Source: Loxodes magnus
Lineage: Eukaryota; Ciliophora; Karyorelictea; Loxodida; Loxodidae
Direction: 5' to 3'
Length of the DNA stretch: 64,000 nt
NCBI GenBank assembly: GCA_946699065.1
Contig: CAMPDV010001028.1
Coordinates: 81,916 to 145,915, forward strand
The notes beneath the pieces are model-generated. The model did no database searches, was not told the DNA's origin, and saw only the letters and a program-made list of their open reading frames with translations. Position numbers and translations under genes: made by a program. Shown piece by piece: positions 7,386 through 42,360 of the stretch (position 1 is its first letter; the number at the start of each line of letters is the position of its first letter).

Positions 7386-7400
7386 TAATAATAATAATAT
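7386..7400 (-). repeat. (TTA)n tail of element A
   Basis: Read on the minus strand, a short run of TTA triplets lies about 30 bases after the 3' hairpin of element A. It matches the tails after elements C, D and the 42.3 kb end. Confidence 0.6.
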
Positions 7401-7425
7401 ACTAAATTAAAGTGTTCGTATCTCC

Positions 7426-7441
7426 GGGGATTTTAAACCCC
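7426..7441 (-). promoter_or_regulatory. 3' hairpin of ORF1 element A
   Basis: On the minus strand: stem GGGG/CCCC, loop TTTAAAAT. The ORF1 frame reaches a TAA inside the loop. The same hairpin, with other stem bases, ends elements B, C, D and the 42.3 kb end. It is probably the RNA structure the element's reverse transcriptase recognises at the 3' end (inference from non-LTR elements). Confidence 0.6.
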
Positions 7442-8125
7442 TTCAATACATCCTCCAGAGTTCGTCCCTTGAGGTTTAAAATAAAAGTTCGGGACCAGTT
7501 TTTTTGGAGTTCTGGCACTCTTTTGAAAAAGCCTCCTTCTAAATATTCTTCCATCCTTGTCTACATAAATTCTTGACAGTTCTCTCCAAATCTCTTCACT
7601 GTTTCTTCTCTGTTTATCCAAATATATCTTGCATCTCTTGTATGTGTGGAATTTTGATTTGCACAGGTAGCACAGCTTGACGATCCTTCTGGGAGGAGTT
7701 ATCTCTAAGGGTTTTGTGTATTCTAGTTCCATTTTATTTTCAGCTAAGATTTAAGGTTAAATTCTTTTTTCTCCCAAATGTTTTACTTCGATTTCCTGTT
7801 TCATTAATCTTTCTTCATTGTTTTAACTTTTCTATAATAATTTTTGGTTTTCTTTCTTTAATATTTAAACTTCTTCTTATAGATTACGGATAGATTTCAT
7901 AAGTTATTCTATTATTAGCTATTCATCATTTTTCTATTTCTACATTATTTTTTAATTACCACTTTTCATGTAGTTGCTTGATAGTGGCTATGGGAGTAAA
8001 AAGTCTCGCTTGCTTTAGTCAGTTTCTGTTGATTTAATTTCTTATTTAATTTAAGATTATCTTTATTTTTCAAAATTTAGGGGTTAAAGAGCCTAAGAAA
8101 ATTATTATGTTATTAAAGAAGACAT
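7433..8125 (-). CDS. ORF1/Gag-like protein A (coiled coil + CCHC zinc knuckle)
   Basis: Retrotransposon nucleic-acid-binding protein of about 230 residues, read with TAA/TAG as Gln. The start at 8125 gives Met-Ser-Ser-Leu and one continuous frame. A Lys/Gln-rich N-terminal half leads into a leucine-heptad coiled coil (about residues 80-110, core LQEEVQILKKENQKLL), then a zinc knuckle CYLCKSKFHTYKRC (Cys-X2-Cys-X4-His-X4-Cys) and a basic tail. Such knuckles bind nucleic acid in Gag and LINE ORF1 proteins. The coiled coil is close to that of element D, so A and D form one subfamily. No reverse-transcriptase ORF follows: the frame runs straight into the 3' hairpin and tail. The frame has no slip and may be fairly young. 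The true end is uncertain because TAA should be Gln in this code. Confidence 0.75.
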
Positions 8126-11100
8126 GGTAGGAGAAGAATTAGAAGTCTCTGGTTTTTTTCCTTTTTCTATGAAGCTGGAAAAATCCTTCTTGAGACCTTC
8201 TGCCATTTTTTTATAATATCTTATTATTCTTATAACTAAATAAAAAACTAAGGAATAAGAAACAATGTATTATAAAAAATAATTAATAGAAAAATGAAGA
8301 AGTTATAAATTGAATTATATTTGCTTGTATAGATAAACTTAATATTCCTTATATTTTTTATATTAAGTCTTTTTATCTTCATTAATTTAAAATAAATAAT
8401 TTTTTCAATAATTCATATATTAAAAAATTAAATAGCTGGAACTTTATTAATTAACTAATTTATTTAAAGAAAAATCAGCTATGCTAATAAAATTTAAATA
8501 AAATTATTAAAATTTTATTTATTCTTTAAAGTTAAGATTATTTTTTTTATTTTTTAAGGCAATTTATTAAGTTTTGATTGAATGAAAGCTCTAAAATTTG
8601 CTAAAGTAGATATCTTACAATTTTAAATTTTAATATAAAATATAAAATTGAAAATAAAATAAATAATCAAATATTAGCAAATTTTAAAATTTTAAATTAT
8701 CAAAACTCATTCAATCCTAGCTCTTATTATGCTTATATTAATAAATAATTAAAATATATCATATGATTGAATATTTAAACTAACTTAAATATATAAATAT
8801 AGCTTTCAAACTTTAGCAATAAATTTAGAAGAATACCTTTATACCTTCGCATATAAGATTTTATTAATCTTTAAAAAGATTTAAGGTGTTAAATGTAAAA
8901 ATAAAGCGAAATGAATCAAAGCTTAATCTCTGATTTTTGTTCATATTTTATTATTATTTATAATAATCTTCTTCATATTTTCTATGTTTTATATTATCAT
9001 TGCTTTTACATATCAACTATTATATAATTCTTAAAATTTTTTGTTTTATAAGTGAAAAAAGTACGATATATACATTTATCTGAAAGAAATTAAATATTTA
9101 GATACTTGGATTATTTAATTTTTATATATTAATTTTTTTGCTCAAATATAATAAATTTTTTTAGAAACTTTCTAAAATTCAGCATAATTGTTTTTTCTTT
9201 TTTGCTTTTAATTATAAAATAAATTTTAATAAATATAAAAATAAAATAACTGGATTTAGAATTAATTTATTAAGTTTTTACTAGAAAAATATGAAACAAA
9301 TTTAGAAAATTTTTAATGAAGATTATATTTATAAATCTAGAGAAATAGATAAAAATCAAGATATTTAGCTTTTTTTTTATTAATTTCGGAAGAAAGAGAA
9401 TAGATTTAAAAATATGAAATTAAATTAAGTTAAATAAGTAATATTATCTGAGTTAGATATTGATAATGATAGATTAACAATTGAAAATAGATGAAGAGAA
9501 TAAATTTTTATAGATTCTTTAATTTTTAATTATGAAAAATTAAAAAATCGATTGAGATTTTTTTTCATTTACTCTTTTGCTGCTATTTATTTTTAATATC
9601 TTATAAATTATGTGAAAGTAGATTTTTTAATTTTTTAATTGGCTAGCTTTATATTTATTTAATTTTTTTTCTAAATAGTCTAGGTAAAATAAACTGAGAT
9701 ATTTTTAGATAATATTATTATTAAATTTATTAATTTAGCAAAATATTTTATTAGTAAATCTATCATTATATCAATATATAACTATTTTACTTTTTTTCTA
9801 TAAAAATGCATATAAAATAAAATATTTTCCTATTTATTAATTTCTATGCAAATACTGCAAAATTAGTTTATTTATATTAATGGGTATGCAAATAAAAGGA
9901 AAATATCATATTATAATATCTTAGGTAATGTTTACTAACATGCAAATAAATAATTATTTTAGAGATTTTTCAATTATCAGAAAAATACAGATTAGTTTAT
10001 GATAAACTTAATGATTGCATATCAAAGTATAAAACATTTTCAATACTATTAAAATAAATAAAATATTAGAAACTTAATATTACTTGCATAAAAAAGCAAT
10101 AATCAAGCAACCTTTTTATCCAAATATAGCTAAATTAAAAAAGCAATTAAAAAATAATAATAATTTTAAACATTATATATTCTAGAATCTTATTATAACA
10201 GAAATGTAAATATTTTAAGCATATTTAGCATTATAAAATTTTATAATAGTAAATTAAAAAATATAAATAGTTGAATTTATTTAAATTATCCATATAAAAT
10301 AGTAAATATTATTATAGATATCCTATAAAATCATGCATTATTAAAAAATATAATTAAGGAAATTATAGTGTGAGAATATAGTTATATATATTAATATTTT
10401 AAATTATAATTAATCAAATTACTTAAATTTTAAATGCTATTATTTTAAATAAATTATTAAAACTTACCTTTAAATCCAATGGTCTAAATAGAGTCTAAAT
10501 ATTTGTAGATATATGTCTTATTATTCTATACTCATCTAATTTCTATTACATAAGCAAGAATCTAAATGCTTGAAATTTAAAAATACTTTGGTATTAAAGA
10601 GCTGAGAAACTAGACCTATGCAGTTATTTATGCTTCATAAGCAATAACTTTCATAGGAATGGGAATTTGCTAAATCAAAGCAATAAAAGAAATAATTTAA
10701 AAATAAAGGAAAAAATATACTAAATTAATTGAAGCAACTTGATATAATGCTATGATAATGTTAAAAGCTGACATTGAAAGGAATTTTTTTAGCAATAGGA
10801 AGATAGCAATATCAAAGTAACTAAAGATTAATTAAATGCTAGTTGATTAACTTAAAACACTGATTTATCTTAGTTATTATAAACATAAAGTTTTCATCTT
10901 TTAATGAATCAGAGCACCCATAATAAAGGTGCTGAGAAAAAAATAATAAAAGAAGTGTTTTATATAGATTGAAGAAATTAAGATTGAGAAGAACGAAGTA
11001 ATTCACTAAAAAAGTTTTAATTCTAATAAATCAATATGAATAGAAGAAATTAAATAAGATATTCAATGATAATTGAAAAAACTTAAACTATCAATAAAAA

Positions 11101-11580
11101 ATTATTACAAGAGAAAAATAAATTTCTTGAGATTGAAAAATAGATCTTTAGACTTTACTATTTTATACTAAAACATAAAATCATTCACTTTTGATAGAAA
11201 ATCAAATTTTTTTTCTTTTACTTCAATAAAAAATTTTTTTAGAAACTTACCAAAAACGTATTTTCTTAAATACTATGAGTTCACCTTATTAAAAAATATA
11301 TTTTAATAAGGTTGGGAATAAATTTTATGAAAAATTGAATGAATCATGCTAGTTATAAAAAATATTTTGGTTTATTATCCGAATATCATACATTTATTTT
11401 ATTTATATATTTGCTTATAGTTAATATTTACTCTAAAATTATATGATAAAGCTTTAACAAAAATACTATAGAATCTGATTTATTAGAGAAATTTGATTCA
11501 CCCTTTATAAATGAGATTTATTAAAAGTAGATAAACTACTTAATATATTTGAATAATATAACAAATAATTGATAACTATC
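8126..11580. other. AT-rich tract, no gene seen
   Basis: No protein motif, RNA gene or clear repeat family recognised. A stretch around 10.8-11.1 kb is purine-rich on the plus strand but gives no identifiable protein. Confidence 0.4.
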
Positions 11581-11589
11581 GGAAACATA

Positions 11590-11815
11590 CTAAAGATAAG
11601 ACTAAACAGATACTGATAGATAGATAATTTCTATTTTATGTGTAGGGAGTATGATACATTCGAGCACATTTAAGTATATATTATTCTAATATAAGAGATT
11701 GACTATCGTAAATGGTTGTAAATTATGACTTAAGTCTATAATTGAAGGAAGCAATTCTTACAGTTATATATGTCAAAAAACTCTTTTAGTTTAAAAATAT
11801 AAATTTAATGTTTAA
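11590..11815 (+). pseudogene. decayed LINE C-terminal fragment
   Basis: This stretch is about 75-80 percent similar by eye to the reverse complement of 18.55-19.0 kb, which encodes the C-terminal CxCG...H...C finger of a LINE protein. Here the first and last Cys are replaced (Tyr at both), while the Glu-Tyr-Asp-Thr-Phe-Glu-His core and the downstream segment (around TTGAAGGAAGCAATTCTTAC) remain. It is an old copy of the same element in the opposite orientation. Confidence 0.55.
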
Positions 11816-12524
11816 CTATACATTTTTGTAATTTATTGATTAAATTACAAAATAATTGCAAAAACATTAATTAAAGGATTGCTCTTTGCTATTTTGGTTG
11901 GTATTAATAGTATTATTTTAAGAATATTATAAACTTATTTAGATTTTAGGTTAAGCAATATTAAAAGAATAATAATTGAAATTAATCTTTAATAATTGGA
12001 ATATAATATCATTATAATATAATAAAGTTCATTTAATTTAAATAAAACGTTTGCAACTAAAAATTGTAAACATTCTATAAATTTTACAAATATAAAGACA
12101 ATTTTAGCAAAATAATTTAAAATATTTAGGTTATCAAATTAGAAGCTTATTTTAAGAGCTTTATATCTTAATAATAGATTAGATCAAAAATATTAGTATG
12201 ATTTATCGAAAAGCATAAAATTAAAAATATTTTTATTGGTAATACTTCTATTTAGTATTTAGCTTTATTTATAAACTTTAGCAATGCTTAATTTGGTTTG
12301 TAAGTGGCATTATTTTAATTCATTGTAATTTAAATCCTTTCAAATTTTTTTTCGCTAAATATTTGTTTTCATTTTTTTATTTTTATTTATATTTTAAAAT
12401 AATTATTAAAAATATCAATATTTAATCTACTTTTATTTTTTGCAGTCAGCTTATAAATTAATGCAAATTTAATTTTTTATAATATAATATAATTAAATTT
12501 ATTAAAAAAATGTACTAAAAAAAG

Positions 12525-13289
12525 ATGGAGCAAAACTTCCGCCTTTCTAAAAATTAAATAAGAAAAGCTAAAAAAAAGGCGGCGCAGGAGTTACGCAAAT
12601 AGGAAAGATAGGAATCAGATTCAAGCTCATCTTCGCAAGGCAAAATTATGACAGGTGCAATTGAATCTAACAAACATAAAATACAAATCCAGGAAGATCT
12701 AAAAATCAAGATTGAGGCAATATAAGCGCAAATAATTAAATACGAAGAAACAATTTACAATTAAAATTTGTAAATAAAGGAGTTAACAAACTTTATAGAA
12801 GACTAAAGCAATGAACATGTAATATTAAAAAACTAACTTATTGAAAACAACCTAGTGACGGAAGAGTAACTCTGAAAATAATCTTAACAAAACTTTAAAT
12901 ATTCTTAAAAGATGGAAGTCGAAAAATAGCCACTTTCGTGTGAAAAACAATCTAACCCATAGAAAGAATCTTAAAATTCGATAATAACATAATAAAAGAC
13001 TTTAAAAATATAAAAATTTTTAATATAAGTACAATTTAACAATAATAAAAAAAACATTGCAGATACTGTCAATCAAGTTATCATCTACTAAGAAACTGCT
13101 AATAATGAAAAAGATTAAAAGAAAAAGAACAATAAAAAACATGATGTCGACTTAACAAATTATGGATAATAAAAACTGGACTATATAGATAAAAAATCCT
13201 TGCAAGACTTACTTAAATTTATTAATGGTAACCTGCCACTTATCAAAAAAGGTCATGGTCTACATCCATGTAAAAAAATGGCAGAGTGA
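12525..13289 (+). CDS. ORF1/Gag-like protein B (frame slip before zinc knuckle)
   Basis: Homologue of protein C at 24.3 kb: both start with Met-Glu-Gln and share RLSKNQI, a five-serine run, IESN, an ETIYNQ segment and NNLVTE. The frame from this ATG is open for 254 codons to a TGA at 13287. The zinc knuckle CRYCQSSYHLLRNC (from 13058) lies in another frame, entered at an A8 run (13047-13054) that would need one more A. So the 254-residue reading has a wrong C-terminal third, and the functional reading would run to about 13,340. Role as for the other copies: a nucleic-acid-binding retroelement protein with a coiled-coil middle. No polymerase ORF follows. Confidence 0.72.
13254..13270 (+). promoter_or_regulatory. 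upstream hairpin of element B
   Basis: Stem CATGG/CCATG with loop TCTACAT, followed at once by TAAAAAAATGG. Element C has two tandem versions (TGTGG/CCACA and GCGTGG/CCACGC) each followed by the same AAAAAAATGG, so the stem is kept while its bases change. Confidence 0.55.
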
Positions 13290-13291
13290 AA

Positions 13292-13307
13292 CTGGTTGGA
13301 ACTTCAG
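13292..13307 (+). promoter_or_regulatory. 3' hairpin of element B
   Basis: Stem CTGG/TCAG (one G-U pair), loop TTGGAACT, equivalent in position to the CCTGG/CCAGG hairpin of element C. Confidence 0.5.
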
Positions 13308-13332
13308 CAAGCTCGAAAACTCTTAACATTTA

Positions 13333-13372
13333 GTTAATTTTAATTTAATTTAATTTAATTTAATTTAATTAA
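13333..13372 (+). repeat. TTTAA pentamer tail of element B
   Basis: About seven tandem TTTAA units directly after the conserved 3' end of element B. It takes the place of the TTA-triplet tail of the other copies. Confidence 0.7.
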
Positions 13373-13399
13373 AAAAATGTATTGTTACTCTTATATTTA

Positions 13400-16300
13400 C
13401 AATCGGGTTTATGCTACTTTTTATATGACTTTTTTCTTTTAATCCCTTTATATAATGGTTTAAAATGACAGATTTTACTTTTAATTTTTTTCTTATTATA
13501 TCTTAAATGTATACAAAGTTTTAAACTGTTTTATATTATTTTTTTCAATTTCAATTATTTTTTTAAAAAAAATGTAATTATTAATTAAAAGTAAAAATGT
13601 TTGCTTTTATTTTGAGCATTTAGTTATTTTTAAATAAAAATTATCCATAGTTCCTCAATAAAGCATTATTTTGTTTATAAATTAAATTAAAAAATAATCA
13701 TAATAATTCTCTTAACAGATGTTCTATGATTAATTCTTTTATCGAAGGATCTTTAAATATAGTCTTTTCTTCTTACCCATCAATCTTTGAAATTAGCATG
13801 ATGGACATGAATATCTTATTTTTTATCATGTTTTCTTAAGTGGGGACTATTTTATGACAAGGTATATTCAGTTTTAACAGCGATCCTAGTATATTATTCC
13901 AAAATAAATGAGTTTCTAAACATTTCTCTTCTAATTTTTTTCAATCAGAAATAATATAATAATTTTATTCTTAAATAATGTTATGTAATTTTTTATATAA
14001 CTAATTAATATTTTACTTATCATAAAATAATAGTAAGATAATACTCAAAAGTTTCTTTTTAATTATTAAAGTTTTATTACTTTTTATAATAGAAATATTT
14101 AGAATATTTTATTTAATTTTGCTATTAAATAGACATTGGAAAAATCATTAGTATTTAAAAGAAAAAAATTTAGATTTAGATAAAAATTAAAGGTAATAAT
14201 AATAAAAAATGAAGTTAAACTATGTGATTTTTTATTTTTTTATACATTTCTATTTACTAATTAGAAATTTTATCCTTTAAATATAAATAATTTTAAATAA
14301 AATTAAGATTATAATAATTAAAATTATATTTTTCATTATTTTAATCATTTATTAGATTAGATATGTAAAACTAAATTACGAATATAAAAATATAATTTAA
14401 GATTTAAACAGTTTGATCAAGAAATTTTTATATTAAAATGTTTTGAGGTTTTCTATTTCAATATTCTTGATTGAGAAAATCCTTAAATATAGTAAACAAA
14501 GTTAGATATTGAAATATCTAATCTCTTTTGAATTTAATTTTCGAATATATTTTAATTTTATAAATGTAAAGCAGAAATATATAAATTTGTAAAGGCAGCA
14601 TTTATATAATCTGATTGCATAATTAATTTTATATTAAGAATAAAGAATTAGCTAAATTATATGGAAAAAATTAGCCTAAATTAAAACTGAGCAATAAAAT
14701 ATTTAAAGTATGAAATAAAGAATAAAGAATAATGACAAATAATCATAAAAAATACGAGAGACTTTTCAAGTAAAATAAAAAGAAGGCTATAATTTTTAAA
14801 GGAAAACACTTGAATAATTGCAACTTAGTAGGATATAAGGTAAATCTCATTTGATTTTTTTTTGGTGATGACTGAGAAGTAATTTTCTATGCAAACTTTT
14901 TTTTTTACAAAAGATAAAAAATTATATGTTAAGCTTGAAAAATTTATTTATGCAATAAATCATCATTTTGCAAGCAAATTTGATATTATGTAAATAAATT
15001 ATTCTAATCTTTTTTCTAATTTCTTTAAACTCAATGATCCAAATTATAGAATATTACAAAAGAAAATTAACATATTTTATGTGTTTTACTAAAATTTTGA
15101 AATGAATTAAAATATAAAAATCATTATAAGTTGCGTTTTATGACTATATAGCACAAAATTGATAAATGAATTAAATTATAGAAATAATGAAAATTGCAAT
15201 TGATTATTTACTTAGTAATGATACAATTTTATATTCAGTTCAAATGAAATAACATTAAGAAAAAAATGTTTGATTTTATATTAGTCTCAGAAATTTCTAA
15301 TCATATTATTGTAAAATTAAATCAACTAAAAAGATAAATTTTCTCATTCATTTTTCAGTAGAAAATTTAGACCAATTTCCAAGGATTTTTCCTTTTAGAC
15401 TTCTGTAATTTAAAAATTTTATTTTCTTCTTACTATGTTTATTTTTCCTTTAAAAGATTCTAAAAAAGTATACATTATAAATAAGTTATTTTATATGAGC
15501 ATAACTTTCTTAAGTAGCAATAGATAAGTTTGAAAGATTAACTATAAAATATTGCTTTTTGAAGAACTTATAAGAATAATGATAGCATTATAATTATAAA
15601 TTAACTCTATGATTTATTTTAATAAAACTATAGAATAATTTTATAATTTATTCTTACATTTAGAAGCTAATTTTCAATAAATGTTTACTATCACTAAAAT
15701 AGATAAGCTTAAAGGGGACAAACAAAAATAAATAAAGTTAAAATAAAAATTCTCATTCATAAGATAAACCAAACTATAATTGATTATAGTAAAATGTTTT
15801 TATGTTTAATATCTGTAAAATTTACAAAATTAATGCTGATAAGAAAATAAATACTAAAATGATATTTAATATTTACTTTATTATTCATTAAATATAAAAA
15901 AGGTCATAAACATAAATATTCTATTTATATTTTACTTACTAGAGTTTATAAAGCAATAATTTAAGAATAATTTAAATTCATATAATTAATATAATTATAA
16001 TATTTTATGTATCTAATTAATATTTTCTAGATTTTATAATTTCTAAAATAACATGCATAAAATTTAGAATAATAATCATTTATCATCGGAAAACAAAAAT
16101 ATATTTAATCTCTATTATACCATAAATCTAGTAAGCATCATTTTATTTAAAAGTCAAGAAGTTAAAAAATAAAAAAAAAGAAAAAACAAATAAAAGATTA
16201 TTAAGTCCATTAAAATAGAGAAAATATCTGATTAAATAAATAAAAAAAAAAAAATTAATCTTAATATTTAAGACATGCTTATCATTCGTAAAAGTATTTT

Positions 16301-17380
16301 ATAATAAGGATTAGACTATGAAATTATAAATAAATAGTTATTATTATGAACAGAAAAATAGTAATAAAGTGAAGCAAAGTATCTAGTAAGATAAAAAGAA
16401 TACTCACTAAAATAAATTACTAAAATTCTTCGGGAAAAGGAACAGAACATTGACGGGTCAAAATAAACTTTAAAGGCATAAGAGGTTTCGAAGTTTAGAA
16501 AAAAATAAAAATAAAAGAATATTGAAAAAATTATTAAGATTATATTATCTACTGAATATAGTTACGATCTGCATCATTAAACATACTGGAAAATATTAAA
16601 TACAAAATCAATAAAAGTCTATCCAGAAGCAGATCGAATGTAAAAAAGAAGAATTTATTAATTTTAAAACATTCTTGACTTAATATTTAAAATTATCTAT
16701 AATAAATATTTTTAGTAAGTTAAGACTTTATTTAATTTTACTTAGAATACCTTTAGTTTAATATATAATTAAACATTTATTCTAGATTAAAATATAATTA
16801 AATATTTGACTTTAAAAAAATAATTAAATTTTATTTTTTACTAAATGAACTTTTAGAGAATAAAATGCTTATAACTCTAAATTTGGTTTAAAATCTAATT
16901 GTTTTTCAAAAATTTTTCCAATATTTAGTATAATTTACCATTAACCTAGCATTATAGTAATTTTCCTATATATTTTGAATTTTATTATCCATATTAGTAA
17001 ATATAAATTATTTAATCTATTTGTTTTATTTAATTTTATTTAATTTTATTTAATTTTATTTAATTTTATTTAATTTTATTTAATTTTATGAATACTTAGA
17101 TTTTCATAGAAAACTTGGAAATCATTAAGTATTCAAAAGAACTTTTAATACTTTATAAATTTAATGCTATTTAATAATTATTTTATTTAAATAAATTAAG
17201 TTATGTTATGCATTATTTAAAGATTTATATATTAAAATAGTTATTTACTATCATAAATAAAAGCATATAACATTTATTTAATTTAGATATATTTTCATAC
17301 TCCTCTTTTGCTTTTTTCTTACTGTATAGATTAAAATGTTTTATTTTCCTTATTAGTAATGAAACAGTATTAAAAATATT
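13400..17380 (+). repeat. segmental duplication, copy 1
   Basis: Parallel to 26.97-30.18 kb. Matching landmarks occur in the same order: a block after ACTCTTATATTTACAATC (13.43 kb), GGTCATAAACATAAATATT (15.90 kb), a block around TTAGAATAATAATCATTTA (16.07 kb), the GAAGCAAAGTA block (16.37 kb) and ATTTACTATCATAAATAAA (17.24 kb). Between landmarks the copies have diverged. No gene is recognised inside. Both copies lie just downstream of an ORF1 element, so the duplication may include that element or be part of a longer one. Confidence 0.65.
17025..17091 (+). repeat. tandem 10-base repeat (TTTATTTAAT)n
   Basis: About six and a half near-perfect units. The matching place in the other copy of the duplication (about 29.89 kb) has only about one unit, so the array expanded after the duplication. 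Confidence 0.75.
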
Positions 17381-19480: not shown

Positions 19481-19639
19481 CTATTAATTATAAAATTGAG
19501 AGTTGATAAAAAAGTATGTTACTAAGGAAACAAAGTGATTTGAAAAAAAGGTTATATAATACTGAAGAAAGCAATAGTGTAAGAGACGAGATAAAGATGA
19601 AATATTAAAAAGGTTATTAATTATCCTAAAGATTGAAGC

Positions 19640-24300: not shown

Positions 24301-24303
24301 AAA

Positions 24304-25074
24304 ATGGAATAATCTATTCGCCTTTCCAAAAACCAAATTAAGAACGCAAAAAGGAAAGCTGCGAAACAAATGCAAAGACAACAACAACAAGAAGATAAAT
24401 CAAGTTCCTCCTCTGAAGGAAAAATCATAATCGGAACAATAGAATCGAATCCAGTAAAGGTATAAAAATAATCCGAAATATAAATATAGCTTGACCAAAT
24501 GAAAACAATAATACAAAATTATTAGGAAACAATTTACAACCAAGGGGAAAAAATAAGAGAACTAATGAATACTATCGAAGATTAAAATAACAAGCTTCTA
24601 ATAATTAGACGATAATTGATTTAGAATAATCTAGTCACGGAATAGTAACTATATGAATAATCTCAATCGAATTTTAAGCAAGAACAAAATATGATTATCG
24701 AAAATGTTTCTACATAAGCAAACGTTTAAGAAAAATAGAATGACTAAAAGATTAATATAGATTTAATCAAAAGAATCGATTAACTTGAAAAAAAAGTATT
24801 TCTGAAGAGATTCAAGAAAAAACAAGGCAAACAATGCTATTATTGCAAATCAAAGTGACACTTATTACAAAATTGCGATTAGTGAAGATAAATTTAGATA
24901 AAAGAACAATAAAGAACGTTAAGCATACTCAGCAGACGCTGAATAACCTAAACGGGGATTTACAAGAGAAAACTATTCACATAAAAGACAGAAGATCCTC
25001 TGTGGTTCCATCCACATAAAAAAATGGCGTGGTATCCATCCACGCTAAAAAAATGGTAGCAAAAACCTGGTTGA
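24304..25074 (+). CDS. ORF1/Gag-like protein C (complete, coiled coil + CCHC)
   Basis: The best-preserved ORF1 copy: 256 codons from ATG to TGA in one frame. Order: basic N-terminus (RLSKNQIKNAKRKAAK), poly-Gln, a serine run followed by Glu-Gly-Lys, a long Gln/Glu-rich coiled coil (about residues 55-165), a basic linker, the zinc knuckle CYYCKSKWHLLQNC at about residue 178 and an Arg/Lys-rich tail. TGA must be Trp at several places (for example the Trp before His in the knuckle), yet the frame ends on a TGA that lies inside the loop of the conserved 3' hairpin. It binds nucleic acid if like Gag or LINE ORF1p. No polymerase ORF lies between it and the tail, so the element is non-autonomous or internally deleted. 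Confidence 0.82.
25001..25045 (+). promoter_or_regulatory. two tandem hairpins in element C
   Basis: TGTGG-TTCCAT-CCACA (25001-25016) and GCGTGG-TATCCAT-CCACGC (25027-25045), each followed by TAAAAAAATGG. The unit is single in element B (CATGG/CCATG). Stem bases differ but pairing is kept, which points to selected RNA structure within the 3' end of the coding region. Confidence 0.6.
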
Positions 25075-25083
25075 AAATCCAGG
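25066..25083 (+). promoter_or_regulatory. 3' hairpin of element C
   Basis: Stem CCTGG/CCAGG, loop TTGAAAAT. The ORF1 stop TGA is in the loop. Spacer of about 28 bases to the TTA tail. Confidence 0.65.
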
Positions 25084-25111
25084 GAATGCTAAACTTTAAT
25101 TACTTTTAGTT

Positions 25112-25131
25112 TACTATTATTATTATTATTA
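25112..25131 (+). repeat. (TTA)n tail of element C
   Basis: A run of TTA triplets marks the 3' end of element C. Confidence 0.65.
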
Positions 25132-33180: not shown

Positions 33181-33249
33181 CATAAAAAATAGTTAATTGC
33201 TACTCTAATATACGTGAAAAACGTTTGATAGTATAACAAGGAAAATGCT

Positions 33250-34950
33250 ATTTTACCATCTAAGAAAACTTAGATTACCTCTGGGATTGATAATGGCATT
33301 TGAATCTTTTTACGAAAATTATGATGCTAAGTTCCTTATTGATGGTAATATTACAAGATCACTTAAATTAAATAACGAAGTATTATAGGGAAGCAGCCAT
33401 GGACCTGTACTTGTAATACTTTACTATGATATTGTAATTAGATATTTAGAAGAAAAATAACATAAATATGGTTATAATATCATCTTGAGAAATTTTGTGG
33501 TTCGTGGCTTTGCAGATATCTTAATTGAGCTTTCTAATTCATAGTAAAATGCATAGAAATTACTTACGCCACAAAAAATATTTCTTGAGTAAAACTAAAT
33601 ATAATGTGGATAAATGTGAAGTAATTTAGTTCTTAAAAAAGAAAGAAAATAGAATTTAAATAAATTTAAATATTAATGGAATTCCTATTGTTTAAAAGAA
33701 CGAAATTACATATCTTGGATACAGATTGGGAAATAAATAAAATTATAAACTACACTGTGCAAGCAAAGTATCTGACTTCAAAGAAGGATTTTTGAAAGCA
33801 TAAGAAATTCTTTCTTAGTACGGAGTAGTATCACCACTCAATTTTAAAAAACTTTGCAGAGTGTTTATTTTGACTAAAATATAGTATGAAAGTGATATAA
33901 CTCCTTGAAGTATCATGTCAGGACTTAAAGGAAAGAAAGCTTAAATAACTAAATTACAAAGACTCATTTCAGGGAAAGCATTTAAATCTCCTTGATTGGC
34001 ATTCAATGAATCTTACTTCGTTGATCTTAATTGACTTCCGTACACACATGGCTATATTAAAATTCATGCGTTTTTATTTTAAACTAGAACAAAACCATTA
34101 AAGAAAACCTGAACTCTAATATAGCATTCTTGTTTTCTAAATGCAAGCAATACTATTTGCCATATATGAAATACATAAATAAAAGCCTTTAATAATATAA
34201 AATTGATATTGAAAGTATGAAAATTATAAAATAATTTAATTAGCATATTATTCTAAGAGTGAAAGAACAATTTCTATAAGAATTTTTTTACAGGAATACA
34301 TGGATGCTTACAGCTTAAAGATACATGCAATCTATTTAAAATAATCAAAGTGTATTTCCTGAAATAACTTATACTAAGTTTAACAGACATAGAATATAAA
34401 ACATAATTTCTATTTTCAAACTGAGGACATTCACCTATAATTTCTAATACGAATTTAGCTTGCGTCACATAAGCACAAAAAATGGAATTGATTGTGCATG
34501 TGGTTTAGCTAGTGGTGAACTCGATCATATATTTGAATGTGCTTTATATAAAGATGTCTTTTAGGAATTATCTAATCGAAAAATATTTAATGACAAAGAT
34601 TATAAAAACTAATTACGAACGACTAAAATTATATTAATTCAAACTTTGTAAAAAGTAAAGCCCCTAAGATTGACTAATATATTAAAAATTTTCATCAAAA
34701 ATTACTTAAAAAAAGGATAAAAATTTAAAAAATTTAGCAGTTGAAACAAAAAGAAAAAATGATGGGAGAAAAAAATATATTTAAGAAAGAAACTTAAATA
34801 ATACATGTGAAAACAAATAAGAAAAAAATGAAAATAAGAAGAGAGAGGAAAATGCGAGAACACAATTTAGAGCCAATATAGAAGAAATATAGAAGAAATA
34901 AAAGAGCAGGAGAAGGAAGAATTAACTAGAAGCTGATAATAAACTTACAT
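33250..34950 (+). pseudogene. non-LTR retrotransposon (LINE) polymerase, degenerate
   Basis: Reverse-transcriptase motifs appear in order on the plus strand. A segment ending LNNEVLQGSSHGPVL (about 33,365-33,405) matches the conserved Gln-Gly-Ser...Gly/Pro-Pro-Leu block. The catalytic loop (about 33,505) reads Gly-Phe-Ala-Asp-Ile, so the second catalytic Asp of the FADD motif is lost. The connection and thumb region (YLGYRLGN and onward) follows, and the C-terminal finger is DCACGLASGELDHIFEC near 34,490-34,540. The frame shifts several times. A Lys/Arg-rich tail precedes the 3' end. It would have copied its own RNA by target-primed reverse transcription; this copy is dead unless the losses are sequence errors. 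Confidence 0.75.
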
Positions 34951-35013
34951 AAACTTTTATACTTAACATAATTCGCATGAAATATACCTATAAGTAGTGC
35001 AATTATGTTCCAA

Positions 35014-35060
35014 TACTCAAAGTATTGAAATTTGTTTATCTTATTATTATTATTAATTAT
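35014..35060 (+). repeat. LINE 3' end: hairpin and (TTA)n tail
   Basis: CAATACT-CAA-AGTATTG stem, a short spacer, then TTA triplets (about 35,041-35,055). Same layout as the ORF1-element ends but a different stem and loop. Confidence 0.55.
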
Positions 35061-36365
35061 TTTACAAATTTACTATTTTATACCCCTTATTTATGAATCG
35101 CTTATATATCGATACATTTTATAAAGCTTGTAAGATTTTAATTAATAATTTTAAACTAAAAGTAATTATATAGTCACATCTCTGATTTCTTATTCGTTTT
35201 AAGTCATCACTATTTATTAAAACCAAGATTCATGATCTAATCATCCGAATCTTCAACTCTCTTCATTATTGTAGGCAACCTAATTTAAGTAAATTTATTA
35301 TCTTAGTTTGCTGTCAATCGTTATATTCTTTATTAAATTTAAATCATACATATGTTTTATATATTCCTCATTATTTGCTTTGCTTATCTTTAATAAACTT
35401 GATTAAATGTATGCATTTGTTTCGAAGCTTAAGATATTAAATTTTAATCTTATGGACTTTATTCTTAGATCTTACTTAATTTATTGATATAAATTTTCTG
35501 TAGTCTATTTTTTCATCAAACCATATAGCATTCTAATATTCGCTGATAATCTAAAGGTGAATCTAAGCCAAAAGGTATTTTCTTTTACCTTTCGAAACTT
35601 ATATTTTTTGAAATATCTTTACAGTATTATCATAGTAATCACTATAATGTAAAACCGTCCAAGAAATAGCAATAAATCTTTGGCTAGTTTATTTTACTTG
35701 CTAATGTTGAAGTATAATGTGGAAAGAAAACTTGCTAAATCACGAGAGTGAAGAAACCGAATATAAAAAGTTTAGTTTTTTGTGGTTATAAGATCTTAAT
35801 TTACATTATACTATTGGAAAAAACTTTGAAGAGATATGTAGCTTACAGACAATTAATCACTATTTCCAGCCATAAACTGTTGTTATAAAGGTTTATAAAA
35901 ATGATAGATAAAAAGTAGAAAAACAAAAATATGGTTTCTGAAGTTAGGTACTTCAGGTATTCGTTCATTCAAAACGAAATTAACAATCTCGTTATAAAAA
36001 ACTTTCATTATTTTCATAGCTTCTCTTCTTATCGAAATCTACTGCTTCTAGACACCTATAAATGTCTCTGATAATTAGAGAACTGGAACTAAACTAGTCT
36101 AACTTAGAATAGATAAAAAATAAAATTATATATAAGTTATTTATCTAGTGATTCATCGTTTCCCTCTAAATTTTAACTTTAAAATTATAAATATAATTTT
36201 CATTATTCAGGATCCTGAAATGCAGATAACAAAGTAAAACATCTCATGGAACTCTTAGCTTTTTTGTAATAAACGAAACAAAATCAGGCTTTAGAATTTA
36301 AATAAAATTTCATAAATATTCACTAAATAAAGATAAACTTAATTCTATTGAAAGTAAATATAACT
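35061..36365. other. no gene identified
   Basis: No recognised motif. The part next to 36.37 kb may be the more decayed continuation of the receptor pseudogene (its later membrane helices), but I cannot align it with confidence. Confidence 0.35.
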
Positions 36366-36369
36366 GTTA

Positions 36370-36930
36370 AATAATAAAAAAAGTGTACTACAATCCATCA
36401 GTAAGTGTCATTTATCTCTTTTCTTTAATCTATTATATTTCTAACTTTCTTCAAATTCTATAGTTATTAATAATAAACACCTGATAGAAAAACTCGAGAT
36501 GAGTATATTATACAAGCTAAATCTTCTCCTTTATGGAAAATTCTTATTTATCTCTTTCTAAAAGGATAATCTATATCTTCTATATAGTCTTTAGGAATTA
36601 CAGTAGTTCTTTCTCCTTATGTTATTTACTTATCAAGTTAAAGTATAATAGGATATGTAGTACAGAAAGTTTCTCTATTATAATATTTTCAAGTTTTATT
36701 TTCGTTTCTATTTCTAAAGTTTATTATATCATAAACTTTAAGATTTGGATTGTTTTAATTATTTTCTATTTATAATTTTCCTTATAATCCCAATATTTTT
36801 ATAGTCCTTAAGATGTTATTTGTATTCTGGAATCTAGATAGTCCTTACTCTATTTAAAAATTTATAATCTTTAGTCAAGCTAGTCATCATCGACTCTGCA
36901 ATCCAACGCAGACATTGCGAAAGGTTAGAC
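36370..36930 (-). pseudogene. decayed partial copy of the double flytrap receptor gene
   Basis: Read on the minus strand this matches about 51,380-51,880 of the receptor gene: the end of the second ligand-binding domain (equivalent of the LDYLDFQN and NALRTIKIYG segments), the linker that in the receptor has CATCP, and membrane helix 1 followed by the MTFTDG segment before helix 2. Nucleotide identity looks like 75-80 percent. Frame-changing indels and lost cysteines (Cys to Tyr in the linker) show it is broken. It lies 15 kb from the intact gene, in opposite orientation, next to the paralogous RING-MORN gene. Confidence 0.8.
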
Positions 36931-37552
36931 TCCAATAATCCTTATAGAAGTCTCATCTTCCAGAATAATTAAATAGGAACGTCACTTCGTGAAAAAAATC
37001 AAAATATTAAAATTAGACAAAATAATAACTTGGATTTAGACTCTTTGTAGCTTTCCCCTTCATTACCAAATTTAGTTAAAGCTGAAAATAATAAAATATA
37101 TTTTATTTTGTTACTTAGAATAAACTTTTAAGATCTATCTTAAGAAGAGATCCTAAATGTAAATATTCAGATAAACTTTAGTATATTATAATTATATACT
37201 ATTAAACCTAATTATTAATAAAGTTGTTTATTAAGCAAGGTATATCTTCATTCTTTTAATTAAGAAGAATAATTAAATATCTATTATTGTATTTATATTC
37301 TTACTTAATAAAAGATAAGAAAAACATACTTATTAGAGTAAAAGCACAAAAGAGCGAAAAGAGAGAAAAATAGAAAATTGAGAATTTTATTCTAAATTTT
37401 AAGGATTTTTAGTATTTTAATGCTTGTACAATAAATTATTAACTTTTCTAAGATTTTCTTGTAAATTCTTTGTACAGTAAAATATTCCAAAATACTAAAG
37501 AAAATAAAAGAACTAAATATTAAACTAGACCAATTAATTTTAATAAATTAAA

Positions 37553-37572
37553 TTATATAATATTATTATTAT
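37553..37572 (-). repeat. (TAA)n tail of element D
   Basis: A short AT triplet run read 3' of element D on the minus strand. Confidence 0.5.
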
Positions 37573-37596
37573 GAATAAAATTGTTTGGCCTTCTTG

Positions 37597-37644
37597 TAGG
37601 TATTTCAACCTATTTCTAGCCTGCCTCCAGATTGCTCCGGAGGC
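37597..37644 (-). promoter_or_regulatory. two 3' hairpins of element D
   Basis: On the minus strand: first GCCTCC/GGAGGC (37,644-37,623), then TAGG-TTGAAATA-CCTA (37,612-37,597), then the spacer CAAGAAGGCCAAACAATTTT and the tail. The 42.28-42.36 kb end has the same order (CCGGAGCAATT, then GAGG/CCTC) with changed stem bases. Confidence 0.6.
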
Positions 37645-37649
37645 TAAAA

Positions 37650-38326
37650 TTAAATGTCGATATTATCTATCTCCATCCACTGTCCTGTCTTGCTTGTTCT
37701 TGAAATCTTCAATTTCTCTTCCATTACTAATTGCATTTTTTCTTGTATATATTTACAAGAGCGTTTATCCATAACTGTTCTATATTCCTTCTTACTTGAA
37801 GCTGTCGCTACCTCTTCCTTTTTTCCTATTGTTATCTTTGCTTTTTACAGTAACTCTGTTTGAAATTTAGGAATTTTTTACACTTCTTTCACAAGTGTTC
37901 TCTTGAGCCACAGCAGTAGCAGGATTTTATTTCTCGCTTGTATAAAGGCTTGTCGACTTTAATTTCTTCGATTTCCATCTTGTCTTATTTCTAATCCCTT
38001 GATTCAATTTACTTTTGCAATGTTTGCTGATTTTCTAGTAGCTGTTCTAATTTACCATCGATTTCTCTGTATTTTTAATCTTGATTCTGGGATTAACTGT
38101 TCTGACTCTGAGATACGTTCCAGAAAGCGCTTAAATCTCTCTCCTGAGACATGAGTCTTGATTCGATTTCCTCTTGCTTTTTCAGATTCTCCTTTAGCTT
38201 GTCATTGTCCTTTTTCAGCTTCCTGACCTCTTCCTGGAGGTTCAGTATCACTTTGATGAGCTATTCCATACTCATCTGGCTAGAAGGATTAAACTATGAA
38301 ACCTCCTAGCGAAGAGTAGACTTCAT
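37650..38326 (-). CDS. ORF1/Gag-like protein D (coiled coil + CCHC)
   Basis: From the ATG at 38,326 the frame gives a Ser/Gln-rich start, then a strong coiled coil (MEQLIKVILNLQEEVRKLKK onward, about residues 15-60), a Gln-rich second helix and the zinc knuckle CYCCGSREHLWKKC (Cys-X2-Cys-X4-His-X4-Cys), where TGA is the Trp. A basic tail (KKQRQQQEKRKRQRQ) follows. The coiled coil is nearly that of element A. Upstream DNA to about 38,530 is also G+C-richer and open, with another ATG at 38,518 in a different frame, so the N-terminus may be longer with a slip in an A5 run. No polymerase ORF follows before the hairpins. Confidence 0.75.
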
Positions 38327-38764
38327 CAGCTTCCATGGCTTCTCTTATGAGGTTGGAGTTATTGCATGTGTTGTCTTTTGAACTTGTTTCTGCTCCTCTC
38401 CAGGTTATTAGGACTAAGAAAAAGGTTAGGGTTAAGGGAAGGAAGACTATCCAAGATTGGATTCAGGTTTCCTCTCCAACTTTTTGGAGGTTGTGTAGAA
38501 ACCTTTTTGAATTCTTCCATTTTATATTTTACTATTTAAATTATATAATATAATTGGTTTTATCTCTTAATTTTATAGATAAAAAAGTTATTTAATCATT
38601 TAAATTTATTTGGTTTATCTTTCTAATTAAATATTTTAGAAAAACTTAAATTATAAAATATTTCATTAAATATGCTAGTTGTTTTTAATTTATAAATTTA
38701 ATAGTTTAATAGTTAGTTTAATTATCGTTATTTAAACGTTTTGGCAGCTAAAATTATAATAAAA

Positions 38765-40117
38765 ATGTCAGAAGTGTAAAAATGCGCTTCTTGCTAGAAT
38801 GAGTTTGATTCTTTTTTTAACACTCCTCTATTGTTGCCCTGCAATCACACAAAGTGTCAAGCATGTTTGTTTACTGAATTTAAGAACTAGAAGTAAAATA
38901 AATGTTCTGATTGTAACGAAATATCATATAGAAATCCTAATAATCTAGCTAAGAACTAATAAATATTAGAAGTAATATAGAAGAAAGAAAATAAATAAAA
39001 TGAACTACTAGAAGAAATATAAAACTGTAAAGAATATAAAAGAGAACTTAAATAAATTTAAAAAATAATAGCAAAGTAATAATCTCAGTCATTAAGATAA
39101 AATTTCTTACTTATGAAATAGCTTTATAATAATAATAAATAAGTATATGATTAAATATCTTAAGCTATACATTCTTTAGACTAAAAAATAAGAATACTTA
39201 CATTAATAGCTTAAAAAGATAATTTAATTCAAAGTACATAAGTATAAAACATTAATTTAAAGCTTAGTGATGAAGAAATGTAATTCTTAAAAAATAAAGC
39301 TGAATCTCATATCAAATTATCTGAAGAAAGGTAATAAAAGTTAAATGTTTAACTGTAAGAATTAATAGAAGAAATAGTTAACTATGAAGGAGAAATAAAA
39401 GAAGGAAAAAATCATGGATATGGAGTATAAAAATATAAAAATGGAAATAGATATGAAGGATAATGAGAAGAAGGAAAAATATAAGGAAAAGGAAAAGAGT
39501 TTTACGCAAATGGAGAAGAGTACGATGGAGAGTTTAAAAATGGATTAAAGGATGGATACGGAGTATAAAAATACGAGGATGGAAGAAGATACGAAGGATA
39601 ATGAGAAGAAGGTAAAAGGAAAGGAAAAGGAACAACTTTTCTTAAAAATGGAGGAATTTTTGAAGGTGAGTTTTTAAATGATAAAGCACATGGATAAGGA
39701 GTTTACAAATTTGTAGATGGAAGTAGATATGAAGGATAATTTGTATAAGATAATTATCAAGGTAAAGGAACTTTTTATTATGAAGATGGAGATATATATG
39801 AAGGAGAATGACTAAATGATTAAAAACATGGGTAAGGAGTTTACAAGTTTGCAAATGGAAGAAGATATGAAGGATAGTTTGTAGAAGATAAAAGATAAGG
39901 TAAAGGAACTTTTTATTATTAAGATGGAGATATATATGAAGGAGAATGACTAAATGATTAAAAACATGGATATGGAGTTTTAAAATTTAAAGATGGAAGT
40001 AGATATGAAGGTTAATGGAAGGAAGGTAAAAAAAATGGGAATTTTAATTTTATAGACATCAATGGATAAATCATAAAAGAAATTTGGAAAGATGATATCA
40101 AATAGAAGATAGAATAA
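38765..40117 (+). CDS. RING finger, coiled-coil, MORN-repeat protein 1
   Basis: Single unbroken frame. Residues about 7-56 form a C3HC4-type RING: Cys-Ala-Ser-Cys, then PCNHTKCQACL, then Cys-Ser-Asp-Cys. A Gln/Lys/Glu-rich coiled coil (about 70-215) follows, then ten MORN repeats of about 23 residues (YEGQWEEGK...G.G... type). RING domains usually act as E3 ubiquitin ligases; MORN repeats bind membranes or scaffold the cell cortex in protists, so a cortical ubiquitin ligase or scaffold is plausible. TGA is Trp in four MORN units and TAA/TAG is Gln throughout. Repeats 6-7 and 8-9 are near-identical 138-base units. The end is unclear: protein-like sequence stops around the TAA at 40,115 (450 codons), but the next TGA is at 40,406 after AT-rich, unlikely sequence. 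Paralogue of the 57.5-60.2 kb gene. Confidence 0.85.
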
Positions 40118-40870
40118 AGTTAAACATAAAACTTTTTTATTAACTAAAAGTTATTTAATTAAAATATATCTATAATAACTTAAAGTTTTAATATTAAATT
40201 TTATGACTTAATATCTAATCTAAACATTTTTCTAAAGCATTTAAACATTATTTTATATTATATAGTTTTTCTATTTTTTTTAATTAATAATACTTGCAAT
40301 TATCTTCATTCAACATTTCTTCTTAGTTTTACTATAGTAGTAAAAGACTTTTTGCTCTAAACTATTTTGCTAATTAATATGGAAAAAATAAAGATTCTAG
40401 TTAACTGAAAATAGATAATAATTGCTAAATAATTTAAGCTGGAAACTTTATCTAAGGTTATAATACTATCAAACATGTGAAAAGTGCAATATAAATAAAT
40501 TATATATAATAAAAAGAATAATAACCATTGCTTAGATATTTATAATTTATTTCGTACTTAGCAATTAAATTTATTTAACTAAATTAAATTAAAATAAAAC
40601 ATGGAAAGTTAAAGAATAATAATAAAAATAAATCTACTTATTCTTCATAAATGATACTTCAATTAACTACTTTAAAAATAATTTTTGTAGGAAAGATTAA
40701 AAAATAATTAAATCTTATTGGTTATCCTTATGTTTATTAGTCTAAACCTTTTAAAAATGTAAATAAGGTTTTTAAAGCCTGATTAAGTTGCTAATAATTT
40801 CTAATTTTTTAAATTTATTTTAATATTATAGTTGTTGAGAAATAAAGAATTAAATAAATATTTTAAATAA
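40118..40870. other. AT-rich spacer
   Basis: Likely 3' untranslated and intergenic DNA. No motif seen. Confidence 0.45.
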
Positions 40871-40879
40871 ATATGATTA

Positions 40880-42050
40880 TAAAGTGCGTAGTACCTTGTT
40901 GGCGCATTGCCCTTTCATTATTAATATTTAATATTAAAAAAAATGTTCTCATACTTCTTGTTTTCATTCTAGCTGTACAATGATTCACGTCAATTTCTTC
41001 AAATGGAAATCTGCTTATGAAAAATTATTCTTGAATCTTGAACAAAATGCTCCAGTTTTCTTGAATAAGATCCATATAAGAGTTAGTTATTAAGTCATTA
41101 ATTAGAAGTCCCATCACTAAAAATGTTTATATTGCAAGCGAGAACCCTCGGGGTAAGTTAGGCTTGTCTCTTCCGAGCTTATTCAACCTTCCCTGTGGTG
41201 GATCTAGTGTAAGATTACTTACAATGCAGTATACGCTGCACCAGATTACCTATTAGTTCTCCTAACCGCTGCCAACATCGATTATTTATAATAATATAAT
41301 AATAAAGAGTATATCATAATTTAGAATTTAAAATTATCAAAGTTAAATATTATTTTCAGTCTAATTTTTTATAAAACTCTCACTTTTTTCTTCTTTATAA
41401 GTTTACTAAAATAAGTATTATCTTAAGTTTCTATTTGAACTCCATATTTTAGTTTTTTTAAATTTCATTTTTGTTAAATATTTAGTCAATATCTTGAGTA
41501 ATTAAATTTTAAACTCAGCATAAAATTGAATATTATTATGCTAGATAAAGAAACTGAGAACATCTAATGCATTAATCAAGATTAAACTAGTTCATTTGTA
41601 AGATACTTACTTTAGAACAGTTTTGACTTAGAAATAGGATAACTATTTAGCAAAATACATTTCAATTAACAACTATAAAAGTAAATTGGGAACAGATTAA
41701 AATTATCATTTAGTATAGCAGAACATTTTTTTAATTAAAGCAAGCGAAAAATTAAAAAACTAGAAAAAGAGAAAAATTCTTTTAATTATCAAGACTAAAA
41801 GCTTAAATCTAATTATTCTAATAAAATTTTTCATCATAAGTAGTTCTTCCAAATCTAATTCATGATGCATTCAGATTTGATAGCATTAGTCTTTAAGTGA
41901 GTTAATGTAAAAACTTTACTTGTTTCATTTATTAAATTCCAAACCTATTTTATAGTTTTGGAAAGAAGAATCAGATCATCTGCGCATCCTCTGCAAGCGA
42001 AGCTAACACTCAAGGCCTGGCATTTGAATACCAATTAGGTACTTACATTT
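40880..42050 (-). pseudogene. LINE reverse-transcriptase fragment
   Basis: On the minus strand, GCADDLILLSKTIKQVWNLI (from about 41,990 downwards) matches the catalytic Ala-Asp-Asp motif of reverse transcriptase and the helix after it, with both Asp present. Towards 40.9 kb other coding-like pieces follow, including LPRGFSLAIQTFLVMGLLIN (about 41,160-41,100) and FPFEEIDVNHCTARMKTRS (about 41,000-40,950), in varying frames. The patch at 41,120-41,290 is clearly richer in G+C than its surroundings. I cannot see an endonuclease or a complete polymerase. Confidence 0.55.
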
Positions 42051-42277
42051 TCCAATTATCTAATTACAATTTCATTACTTTTATTATAAATAAATAGAGA
42101 GAAGCAATTCTCCAACTGAAACTGATTTAAACTCTGGTACCAGGAAGTACCCCATAGGTGAAGAACTAGCCAAGAGAAGAGAAGACAAGATCGAAGAGAA
42201 TGGAAGATGAAACTGAAGACAATATGACCAAGTGAGAGAGAGAGGAGATCAAATATTTAAACATTTTTATATAATCC

Positions 42278-42360
42278 CGGAGCAATTCGGCGATTGGCAG
42301 GAAGAGGTGAAATTCCTCCAAGATTACCAAACTTAATTTTATTATTATTATTATTATTTT
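42278..42360 (+). mobile_element. 3' end of an ORF1-type element
   Basis: CCG-AGCAATT-CGG-like first hairpin with GGCAGG after it, second hairpin GAGG-TGAAATT-CCTC (42,304-42,318), spacer CAAGATTACCAAACTTAATT, then (TTA)n (about 42,337-42,356). This is the same order as the end of element D. Upstream (42.1-42.25 kb) is purine-rich on the plus strand and could encode a charged protein end, but I see no zinc knuckle. Confidence 0.6.

Follow-up and report, generated by a model that had tools for sequence, protein, structure and literature searches.

Stringent-type tails, in which a stem-loop near the 3′ end is followed by a short tandem repeat, belong to long interspersed nuclear elements (LINEs) and are used as well by short interspersed nuclear elements (SINEs), which have no reverse transcriptase (RT). 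The LINEs UnaL2 of the eel and ZfL2-1 and ZfL2-2 of the zebrafish have a 3′ stem-loop with a specific loop and a replaceable stem, followed by a short repeat tail. The ZfL2 elements are reported to need their own loop and to stay mobile after exchange of the stem, which lowers the rate to about half in one of them (PMC4176376), and the UnaL2 loop GGAUA is described as reducing to GGAA, a GNRA tetraloop, if the fourth base is left out (PMC6510757). In mammals, HAL1 (‘half-L1’) comprises non-autonomous elements that, by their published description, encode open reading frame 1 (ORF1) only (PMC5753468). Here, we analyze a 64,000-nucleotide window of the genome of the ciliate Loxodes magnus (GenBank assembly GCA_946699065.1, contig CAMPDV010001028.1, positions 81,916 to 145,915 of the forward strand; coordinates below are window positions unless a contig is named), where five retroelement ends, those of elements A to E, carry a similar 3′ hairpin. 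We give a probability of roughly 0.58 to the reading that this hairpin is a cis-acting 3′ RNA signal of non-autonomous retroelements, recognized by an RT that is encoded elsewhere.

The Loxodes ends resemble UnaL2 and the ZfL2 elements in their 3′ stem-loop, specific loop, apparently replaceable stem and short repeat tail, and the GAAA or GGAA inside the loops of B, C, D and E, though not of A, is like the GNRA loop of UnaL2. As in a stringent-type tail, a short tandem repeat follows the Loxodes stem-loop near the 3′ end, and like the LINE/SINE tails of that type this stem-loop is used by elements without an RT. The Loxodes system differs from these LINE/SINE pairs in that four LINE families yielded no autonomous partner carrying the same hairpin, and in that the ORF1 frame enters the loop in several families of a host with an ambiguous UGA. 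Elements A, B and D, like HAL1, encode ORF1 without an RT, a likeness that lies in the ORF1-only build; HAL1 belongs to L1, of the relaxed poly-A type, whereas the Loxodes elements have a zinc-knuckle ORF1, a 3′ hairpin and a simple-repeat tail. The LINEs of the same Loxodes genome also end in 3′ hairpins, but these have another sequence and mostly other tails.

The published macronuclear assembly of L. magnus is given as 706 Mbp, with 915 repeat families and abundant LINEs, among them rnd-1_family-27 and -19 of 5–6 kb (PMC11441545). According to the same paper, UGA is ambiguous in Loxodes, being either tryptophan (Trp) or the only stop; genes in general read it as Trp if it lies far enough upstream of the poly-A tail, genes generally end in UGA, and 3′ untranslated regions (UTRs) are short (mean 53, median 41 bp). 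The main text of that paper contains no mention of a hairpin, stem-loop, SINE, non-autonomous element, ORF1 or zinc, and a search of open-access literature gave no earlier description of the hairpin studied here. The window is AT-rich, and its frames with MORN-like repeats and zinc-knuckle patterns, recognized by eye, read TAA/TAG as glutamine and TGA as Trp. No Rfam family reached the gathering threshold in the window, and ARAGORN, run with the bacterial code, found no tRNA there. All genome-wide scans used the L. magnus assembly of 705,730,643 bases in 7843 contigs.

Five hairpins with a similar loop stand before simple-repeat tails

All five hairpins of a first-pass annotation of the window were found where it had placed them, and their common 3′-end form is NNGG-UUGAAAAU-CCNN, then a simple-repeat tail. 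The hairpin of A (7426-7441, minus strand) is GGGG[TTTAAAAT]CCCC and is identical in its copy L167. The hairpin of B (13292-13307, plus strand) is CTGG[TTGGAACT]TCAG, and 19 of 28 B copies read exactly CTGG[TTGGAACT]CCAG, the TCAG of the window copy being a point change. The hairpins of C (25066-25083, plus strand) and D (37597-37612, minus strand) are CCTGG[TTGAAAAT]CCAGG and TAGG[TTGAAATA]CCTA, and that of E (42304-42318, plus strand), GAGG[TGAAATT]CCTC, is the same in all three copies fetched (L168-L170). The annotation had stated that all stem pairs change together, which holds for the outer pairs but not for the inner two, as these are GG/CC in all five; nor do all the stems differ, B and C being related elements with the same stem. 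The tail announced as TTA or TTTAA is present in A, C and E (TTA) and in B (TTTAA), but D ends in (ATA/TAA)n. An AAAC in the spacer occurs in B, C, D and E, and also in a new family, F1, but in A only loosely (AACAC).

Written as UU-GAAA-AU, the loop has the sequence of a GNRA tetraloop at its centre, which is GAAA in C, D and F1, GGAA in most B copies and UAAA in A. The GNRA-like loop is a reading of the sequence rather than a demonstrated fold. Vienna folding gave the expected stem for A, C, D (with one extra pair), E, a new family G and one F1 form.

A random AT-rich background, which the annotation had named as the source that would speak against it, did not reproduce the arrangement. Using a pattern composed after the five hairpins were known, we observed 5 core hairpins with a tail in the window and 0 in 200 block-wise Markov simulations, where core hairpins regardless of tail averaged 0.21 per simulation. 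Among 17 (TTA)4+ sites of the window and the longer fetched loci, counted after look-alike sites had been collapsed and with the LINE described below, LINE35, still listed three times, 7 are preceded within 70 bases by a hairpin with at least two G-C pairs (A, C, E, the new G in L016, LINE35 twice and one unrelated site); the remaining 10 have no such hairpin. In E, the best-scoring hairpin before the tail is CCGGA[GCAA]TTCGG, upstream of the one given above.

Outer stem pairs change together between families

We compared 11 rows, comprising A, B, C, D, E (aligned with one N inserted in the loop for a missing base), two F1 forms, G (L016), L159, H (L162) and L160, against shuffles which, like all those reported here, ignore relatedness. 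All 44 stem cells pair, versus 71.5% in shuffles (0 of 500 as high), a count that leans towards pairing because most rows were chosen for it: 9 of the 11 were picked knowing their pairing, namely the five from the first-pass annotation, three from a list of paired types and L118, the best-paired of 26 F1 copies. Cells changed on both sides numbered 15, versus 4.3 in shuffles (0 of 500 as high), and in eight rows of different families 32 of 32 stem cells pair. GG/CC is invariant at the inner positions, and five and three standard types occur at the outer two pairs. F1 and G were met without selection on the stem, and both have it. The cleanest single case is L159, an alignable relative of D, where TAGG/CCTA has become AAGG/CCTT and U-A has become A-U.

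A genome-wide scan (scan 1) for the core with constant GG/CC, which did not require outer pairing and excluded G at −4 and C at +4, gave 1295 matches versus 133 for the reversed pattern. Among 100 listed of the 1295, tandem places were collapsed to leave 88 places and 31 distinct hairpin types. Standard pairs occupy both outer positions in 12 of the 31 listed types versus 5.0 by shuffle (P = 0.0009), and both outer pairs are Watson–Crick in 9 versus a shuffle mean of 3.5 (P = 0.004). Scan 1 and a second scan with G at −4 (scan 2) were shuffled separately, because pooling two patterns itself creates association.

A third pattern, consisting of the loop and tail with no stem required, matched 303 times versus 32 for its reverse, overlapping registers of one tail being counted separately in pattern and control alike. 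From about 100 listed of the 303, we fetched 60 places, leaving out apparent repeats of C. Copies of C account for 24, all with at least four standard pairs, and F1 for 26, of which 19 have at least four pairs in the annotated register. The stem is also kept, with at least four pairs, in 27 of 30 D copies and, as standard pairs, in 26 of 28 B copies, that is, in 24 with the annotated loop and in L007 and L018, where a loop base is changed; L005 and L009 are the B copies without it. The listed matches of scan 1 and of the loop-and-tail pattern are dominated by element families.

The outer-pair double changes, the excess pairing in scan 1 and the swap in L159 support the annotation's proposal of an RNA structure under selection, and selection for such a structure at the 3′ ends is, as judged by sequence comparison, well supported. 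A conserved loop with a stem kept by pairing holds for the outer two pairs only, in scan 1 and in the 11-row comparison and not in scan 2.

The hairpin is carried by ORF1-only elements and a SINE-like repeat

Elements A, B, C and D, of 0.8–1 kb, have one ORF1-like frame each, with a zinc-knuckle pattern and no RT; the knuckle CX2CX4HX4C is found in all four and in F1 and F3. A Pfam search at E-values up to 1 gave no RT and no family above the cut-off for A, B (three frames), C, D and F1. Element A (7386..8206, minus strand), an ORF1-only element with the zinc knuckle CYLCKSKFHTYKRC, has (TTA)4 at its 3′ end, and its window copy lacks one base near that end; of 1121 candidates, 40 were scored, 39 of them besides the window copy, at 97% identity. 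Element B (12517..13368, plus strand) is likewise ORF1-only, with about 830 bp plus the TTTAA tail, and the 5′ ends of 19 of 28 copies fall within 4 bases (query positions 316-319), other matches reaching further upstream. The ORF1-only element C (24304..25131, plus strand) has the zinc knuckle CYYCKSKWHLLQNC, with TGA as W, and a (TTA)5 tail at 25117-25131; its 5′ end was set at the ATG at 24304 and not derived from copies.

Element D (37561..38530, minus strand), ORF1-only and about 970 bp long, has the zinc knuckle CYCCGSREHLWKKC and an (ATA/TAA)n tail. Among its 30 copies, 21 start within about 30 bases of one place, 7 have a rearranged 5′ end, 1 is shorter and 1 is the window’s own; several have common flanks, so not all are independent insertions. 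B and C are related, with 46–52% identity in the N-terminal part of B, and the ORF1s of D and F1 are 54–56% identical. The ORF1 of A is weakly similar to those of B, C, D and F1, in a comparison without composition correction, so that weak matches are leads only.

Element E (42193..42357, plus strand) is a SINE-sized repeat of 165 bp with a (TTA)6 tail and no zinc-knuckle ORF. Its first look gave 2845 candidates, and 36 of 40 listed matches begin at the same base. We call E a putative SINE-like repeat, a likeness in size, common 5′ end and tail. Many copies of B, D and E have common ends.

The ORF1 frame and the loop TGA

As the first-pass annotation had claimed, the TGA at 25072..25074 (plus strand) lies within the hairpin loop of C and in frame with the ATG at 24304; it is the last TGA of this ORF1 and its likely stop. 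The matching claim for A, an in-frame TAA at the same site, failed, as this TAA is one base off and owes its frame to a base that is missing from the window copy and present in L167. TAA as the stop of A was consequently rejected as a frameshift artefact. Other listed A copies, too, mostly exceed the window’s A in length by a few bases, and if L167 is read upstream in the frame of the window copy, a TGA in that frame lies 8 nt before its loop.

One copy each was read of C, F1 and F3, and in all three the zinc-knuckle frame has the loop TGA as its last TGA; in F1 a further TGA precedes it by 9 bases. Of the 14 D copies where the knuckle was found, 5 have the loop TGA in that frame, the window copy not being one of them, as do two B copies (L003 and L006). 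The zinc-knuckle frame runs into the loop in 12 of the 22 B copies with a knuckle found, and the loop codon of 28 B copies is TGG in 25, TGA in 2 and TGT in 1. In E, a 36-codon frame ends at the loop TGA, with an earlier TGA at codon 12.

The search for an autonomous partner and the points against recognition

The window contains LINE35 (33400..35055, plus strand), a 5′-truncated RT-coding LINE that extends from a FADD motif, recognized by eye, to a 3′ end with a (TTA)5 tail at 35041-35055. Its 3′ hairpin (35011..35027, plus strand), CAATAC[TCAAA]GTATTG, is unlike the A–E hairpin and has 6/6 standard pairs in 23 of 30 copies and 5/6 in the other 7. LINE35 has a TTA tail like A, C and E and a TTGAAAC in another setting, which is a lead only. 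We scored 150 of 3403 RT candidates (RVT_1) and read, at the 3′ end, three classes picked by size and stop-codon counts. Hairpins are present at 4 of 4 sampled LINE ends, and the outer stems of classes I and III, AGAGC/GCTCT versus AGTGC/GCACT, show a compensatory A-U/U-A difference. The check that the annotation had proposed, whether autonomous LINEs share the hairpin, did not find it in the four LINE families read.

The long hairpins with that outer-stem difference, those of L153 (G000:C413:8089-8889) and L155 (C105:426061-426861), are independent of the A–E hairpin. Directly downstream of the L155 LINE end, a new frame with a zinc-knuckle-like stretch begins, as if another ORF1 element or LINE stood head to tail. 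Two further window regions were considered as LINE pieces and rejected: that at 35.8-36.9 kb has no Pfam match above the cut-off, and that at 51.4-52.4 kb overlaps the end of an ANF_receptor match.

Several of our observations weigh against recognition of the hairpin by an RT encoded elsewhere. The A–E hairpin is on 0 of the 4 sampled RT-coding LINE families (LINE35, L153, L154 and L155); L153, L154 and L155, read from one copy each with the end set by eye, have hairpins that are longer and different, and their tails differ as well. The tails also differ between the carrier families, being TTA in A, C, E and F1, TTTAA in B and ATA/TAA in D. Scan 2 gave 1073 matches versus 516 for its control, a weaker excess, and no excess pairing (10 of 14 types versus 9.3 shuffled, P = 0.39), as counted on the 56 rows that showed letters among 100 listed of the 1073. 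Of 11 places fetched from the scan 1 list, 7 lack a clear tail (L156-L161 and L163); the tail-less L158 and L159 are recognizable relatives of H and D. At the loop-and-tail places, 7 of 26 F1 copies have no closing pair in the annotated register, L123 and L134 among them carrying a shifted-register sequence, and the 10 of the 60 places outside C and F1 hold other sequences in which four pairs are never reached. Folding of B prefers GUUGG[AACU]CCAGC, and the main F1 form folds in a shifted register. In the 11-row comparison, two further measures are not unusual, as 437 of 500 shuffles match or exceed the number of doubly changed pairs and 181 of 500 the number of pair types. Coding sequence reaches the loop in several families, so protein constraint may add to loop conservation. 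Our confidence was lowered, in particular, because the loop TGA of D is in frame in 5 of 14 copies and 7 of the 11 scan 1 places are tail-less.

Other features of the window and the genome

Four places hold retroelement-like sequences as long tandem repeats, G000:C29:1063525-1086442, C3:1893708-1909196, C5131 and C20, in arrays whose period is approximately 5725 bp with 5 hairpins, 1934 bp with 9 hairpins, and 2532 or 2504 bp with RT domains. L157 (C15:534610-534750) and L156 (C29:1063480-1063630) have the hairpin core with a paired outer stem and no clear element tail, and may be ordinary gene ends or unknown elements. In the window, a repeat beginning GCAGTATACGCTGCACCAGATTACCTA at 41120-41310 recurs beside the D copies L069 and L086 and is perhaps another retroelement end. 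A receptor-like gene lies at 50509-51525 (plus strand; ANF_receptor, E = 1.2e-29), and the segment 51378-52440, which overlaps the end of that match, is 72.6% identical to 36866-35817 on the other strand, 15 kb away. Similar MORN-like repeat genes, recognized by eye, lie at 39380-40040 (plus strand), behind a RING-like finger, and at 57670-59440 (minus strand), with TGA where Trp is expected.

Discussion

The group carrying the proposed signal would comprise the ORF1-only elements of 0.8–1 kb and the 165-bp SINE-like repeat. The loop, centred on GAAA (UU-GAAA-AU) and closed by two G-C pairs that do not vary, would most likely be bound by an RT from elsewhere, and target-primed reverse transcription would start at the simple-repeat tail 20–33 nt downstream of the hairpin. 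The outer stem would need only to pair, and its letters could then drift in matched changes. The elements have an ORF1-only build, a hairpin positioned before the tail, compensatory changes in its stem and copies with common ends; binding by an RT encoded elsewhere, with priming from the tail, is the likeliest role that we can suggest for it. We infer recognition by an RT, which the first-pass annotation had put forward, because of the hairpin’s position, the tails and the published stringent-type LINEs; it is a reasonable proposal on these grounds, but none of the four LINE ends read shares the hairpin. Stringent-type recognition would be expected to leave a similar loop, closing G-C pairs that stay constant and outer pairs that vary freely.

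A first alternative is that the conserved GGTTGAAAATCC encodes a motif at the C terminus of ORF1 (Gly, TGA as Trp or stop, Lys/Asn, Ser/Thr), with the hairpin as a by-product. The zinc-knuckle frame does take in the loop codon in the single copies read of C, F1 and F3, in 5 of 14 D copies and in 12 of 22 B copies, where the mostly TGG codon (25 of 28) also reads Trp, and the 5′ GG and 3′ CC fall in Gly and Ser/Thr codons. However, the outer stem bases are in variable codons and are still complementary; between D and L159, Ile changes to Lys and Tyr to Phe while the pair is kept, and E, only 165 bp long, has no zinc-knuckle ORF. We consider a coding origin of the motif unlikely.

The hairpin could also, in place of RT recognition, give the elements a signal of the host type for transcript end formation or RNA stability, acting in cleavage, polyadenylation or the protection of short 3′ UTRs. 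Its distance of some 35–60 nt from the end is close to a usual Loxodes 3′ UTR, for which a mean of 53 and a median of 41 bp are reported (PMC11441545), and L156 and L157 have the hairpin without a clear element tail. Such a signal is quite unlikely, however, given that no Rfam family was found in the window, that listed matches are mostly element families and that four LINE ends, under the same host processing, have other hairpins.

It is more speculative, and we think it improbable, that a loop-bound protein would choose between translation and copying of the same RNA in a genome with an ambiguous UGA. ORF1 retroelements would then keep a UGA within a hairpin loop that the copying machinery grips. 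With the hairpin free, the ribosome would stop at the loop UGA; with the hairpin bound, the ribosome would be kept off the 3′ end and reverse transcription would begin. The D copies weaken this possibility, as no more than 5 of 14 have the loop TGA in frame.

The annotation had further suggested that the hairpin makes the ambiguous loop UGA a stop. An in-frame loop TGA occurs in single copies of C, F1 and F3, in E within a short frame that has an earlier TGA, and in 5 of 14 D copies; yet 5 of 14 is close to the one in three expected of random frames. B has TGG in the loop of 25 of 28 copies and keeps the stem in 26 of 28, on which count we rejected a stop-recoding hairpin, and the TGA of the A copy L167 lies before the stem. 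Moreover, Loxodes genes are reported generally to end in UGA, with short 3′ UTRs, and to read UGA as Trp far upstream of the poly-A tail (PMC11441545). A role in stop decoding is thus very unlikely, because B keeps the hairpin without a TGA and the A case was an artefact; the ORF1 frame would often run into the hairpin because Loxodes 3′ UTRs are short, and not because the hairpin makes the stop.

That AT-rich sequence and the common descent of a few families mimic covariation draws on the selection of the five ends for their stems, with one stem in B and C, on the three rows from the paired-type list and the best-paired L118 of 26, and on shuffles that ignore relatedness, but chance was rejected by the simulations (0 of 200) and by the reversed-pattern controls (32 versus 303, 133 versus 1295 and 516 versus 1073), and with excess pairing in scan 1, which was not conditioned on the outer pairs, and different outer pairs in A, B/C, D, E, F1 and H, the explanation is highly improbable.

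Under recognition by an RT encoded elsewhere, the Loxodes hairpin would extend a subject whose recognition experiments, in the cited work, concern vertebrate and insect elements. Loxodes has thousands of LINE-type RT copies and no detected germline-soma DNA elimination, and its families with one loop and exchanged outer stems would amount to a natural mutagenesis series for what an RT reads. The hairpin may also serve as a 3′ boundary signal for classifying part of the genome’s unclassified repeats.

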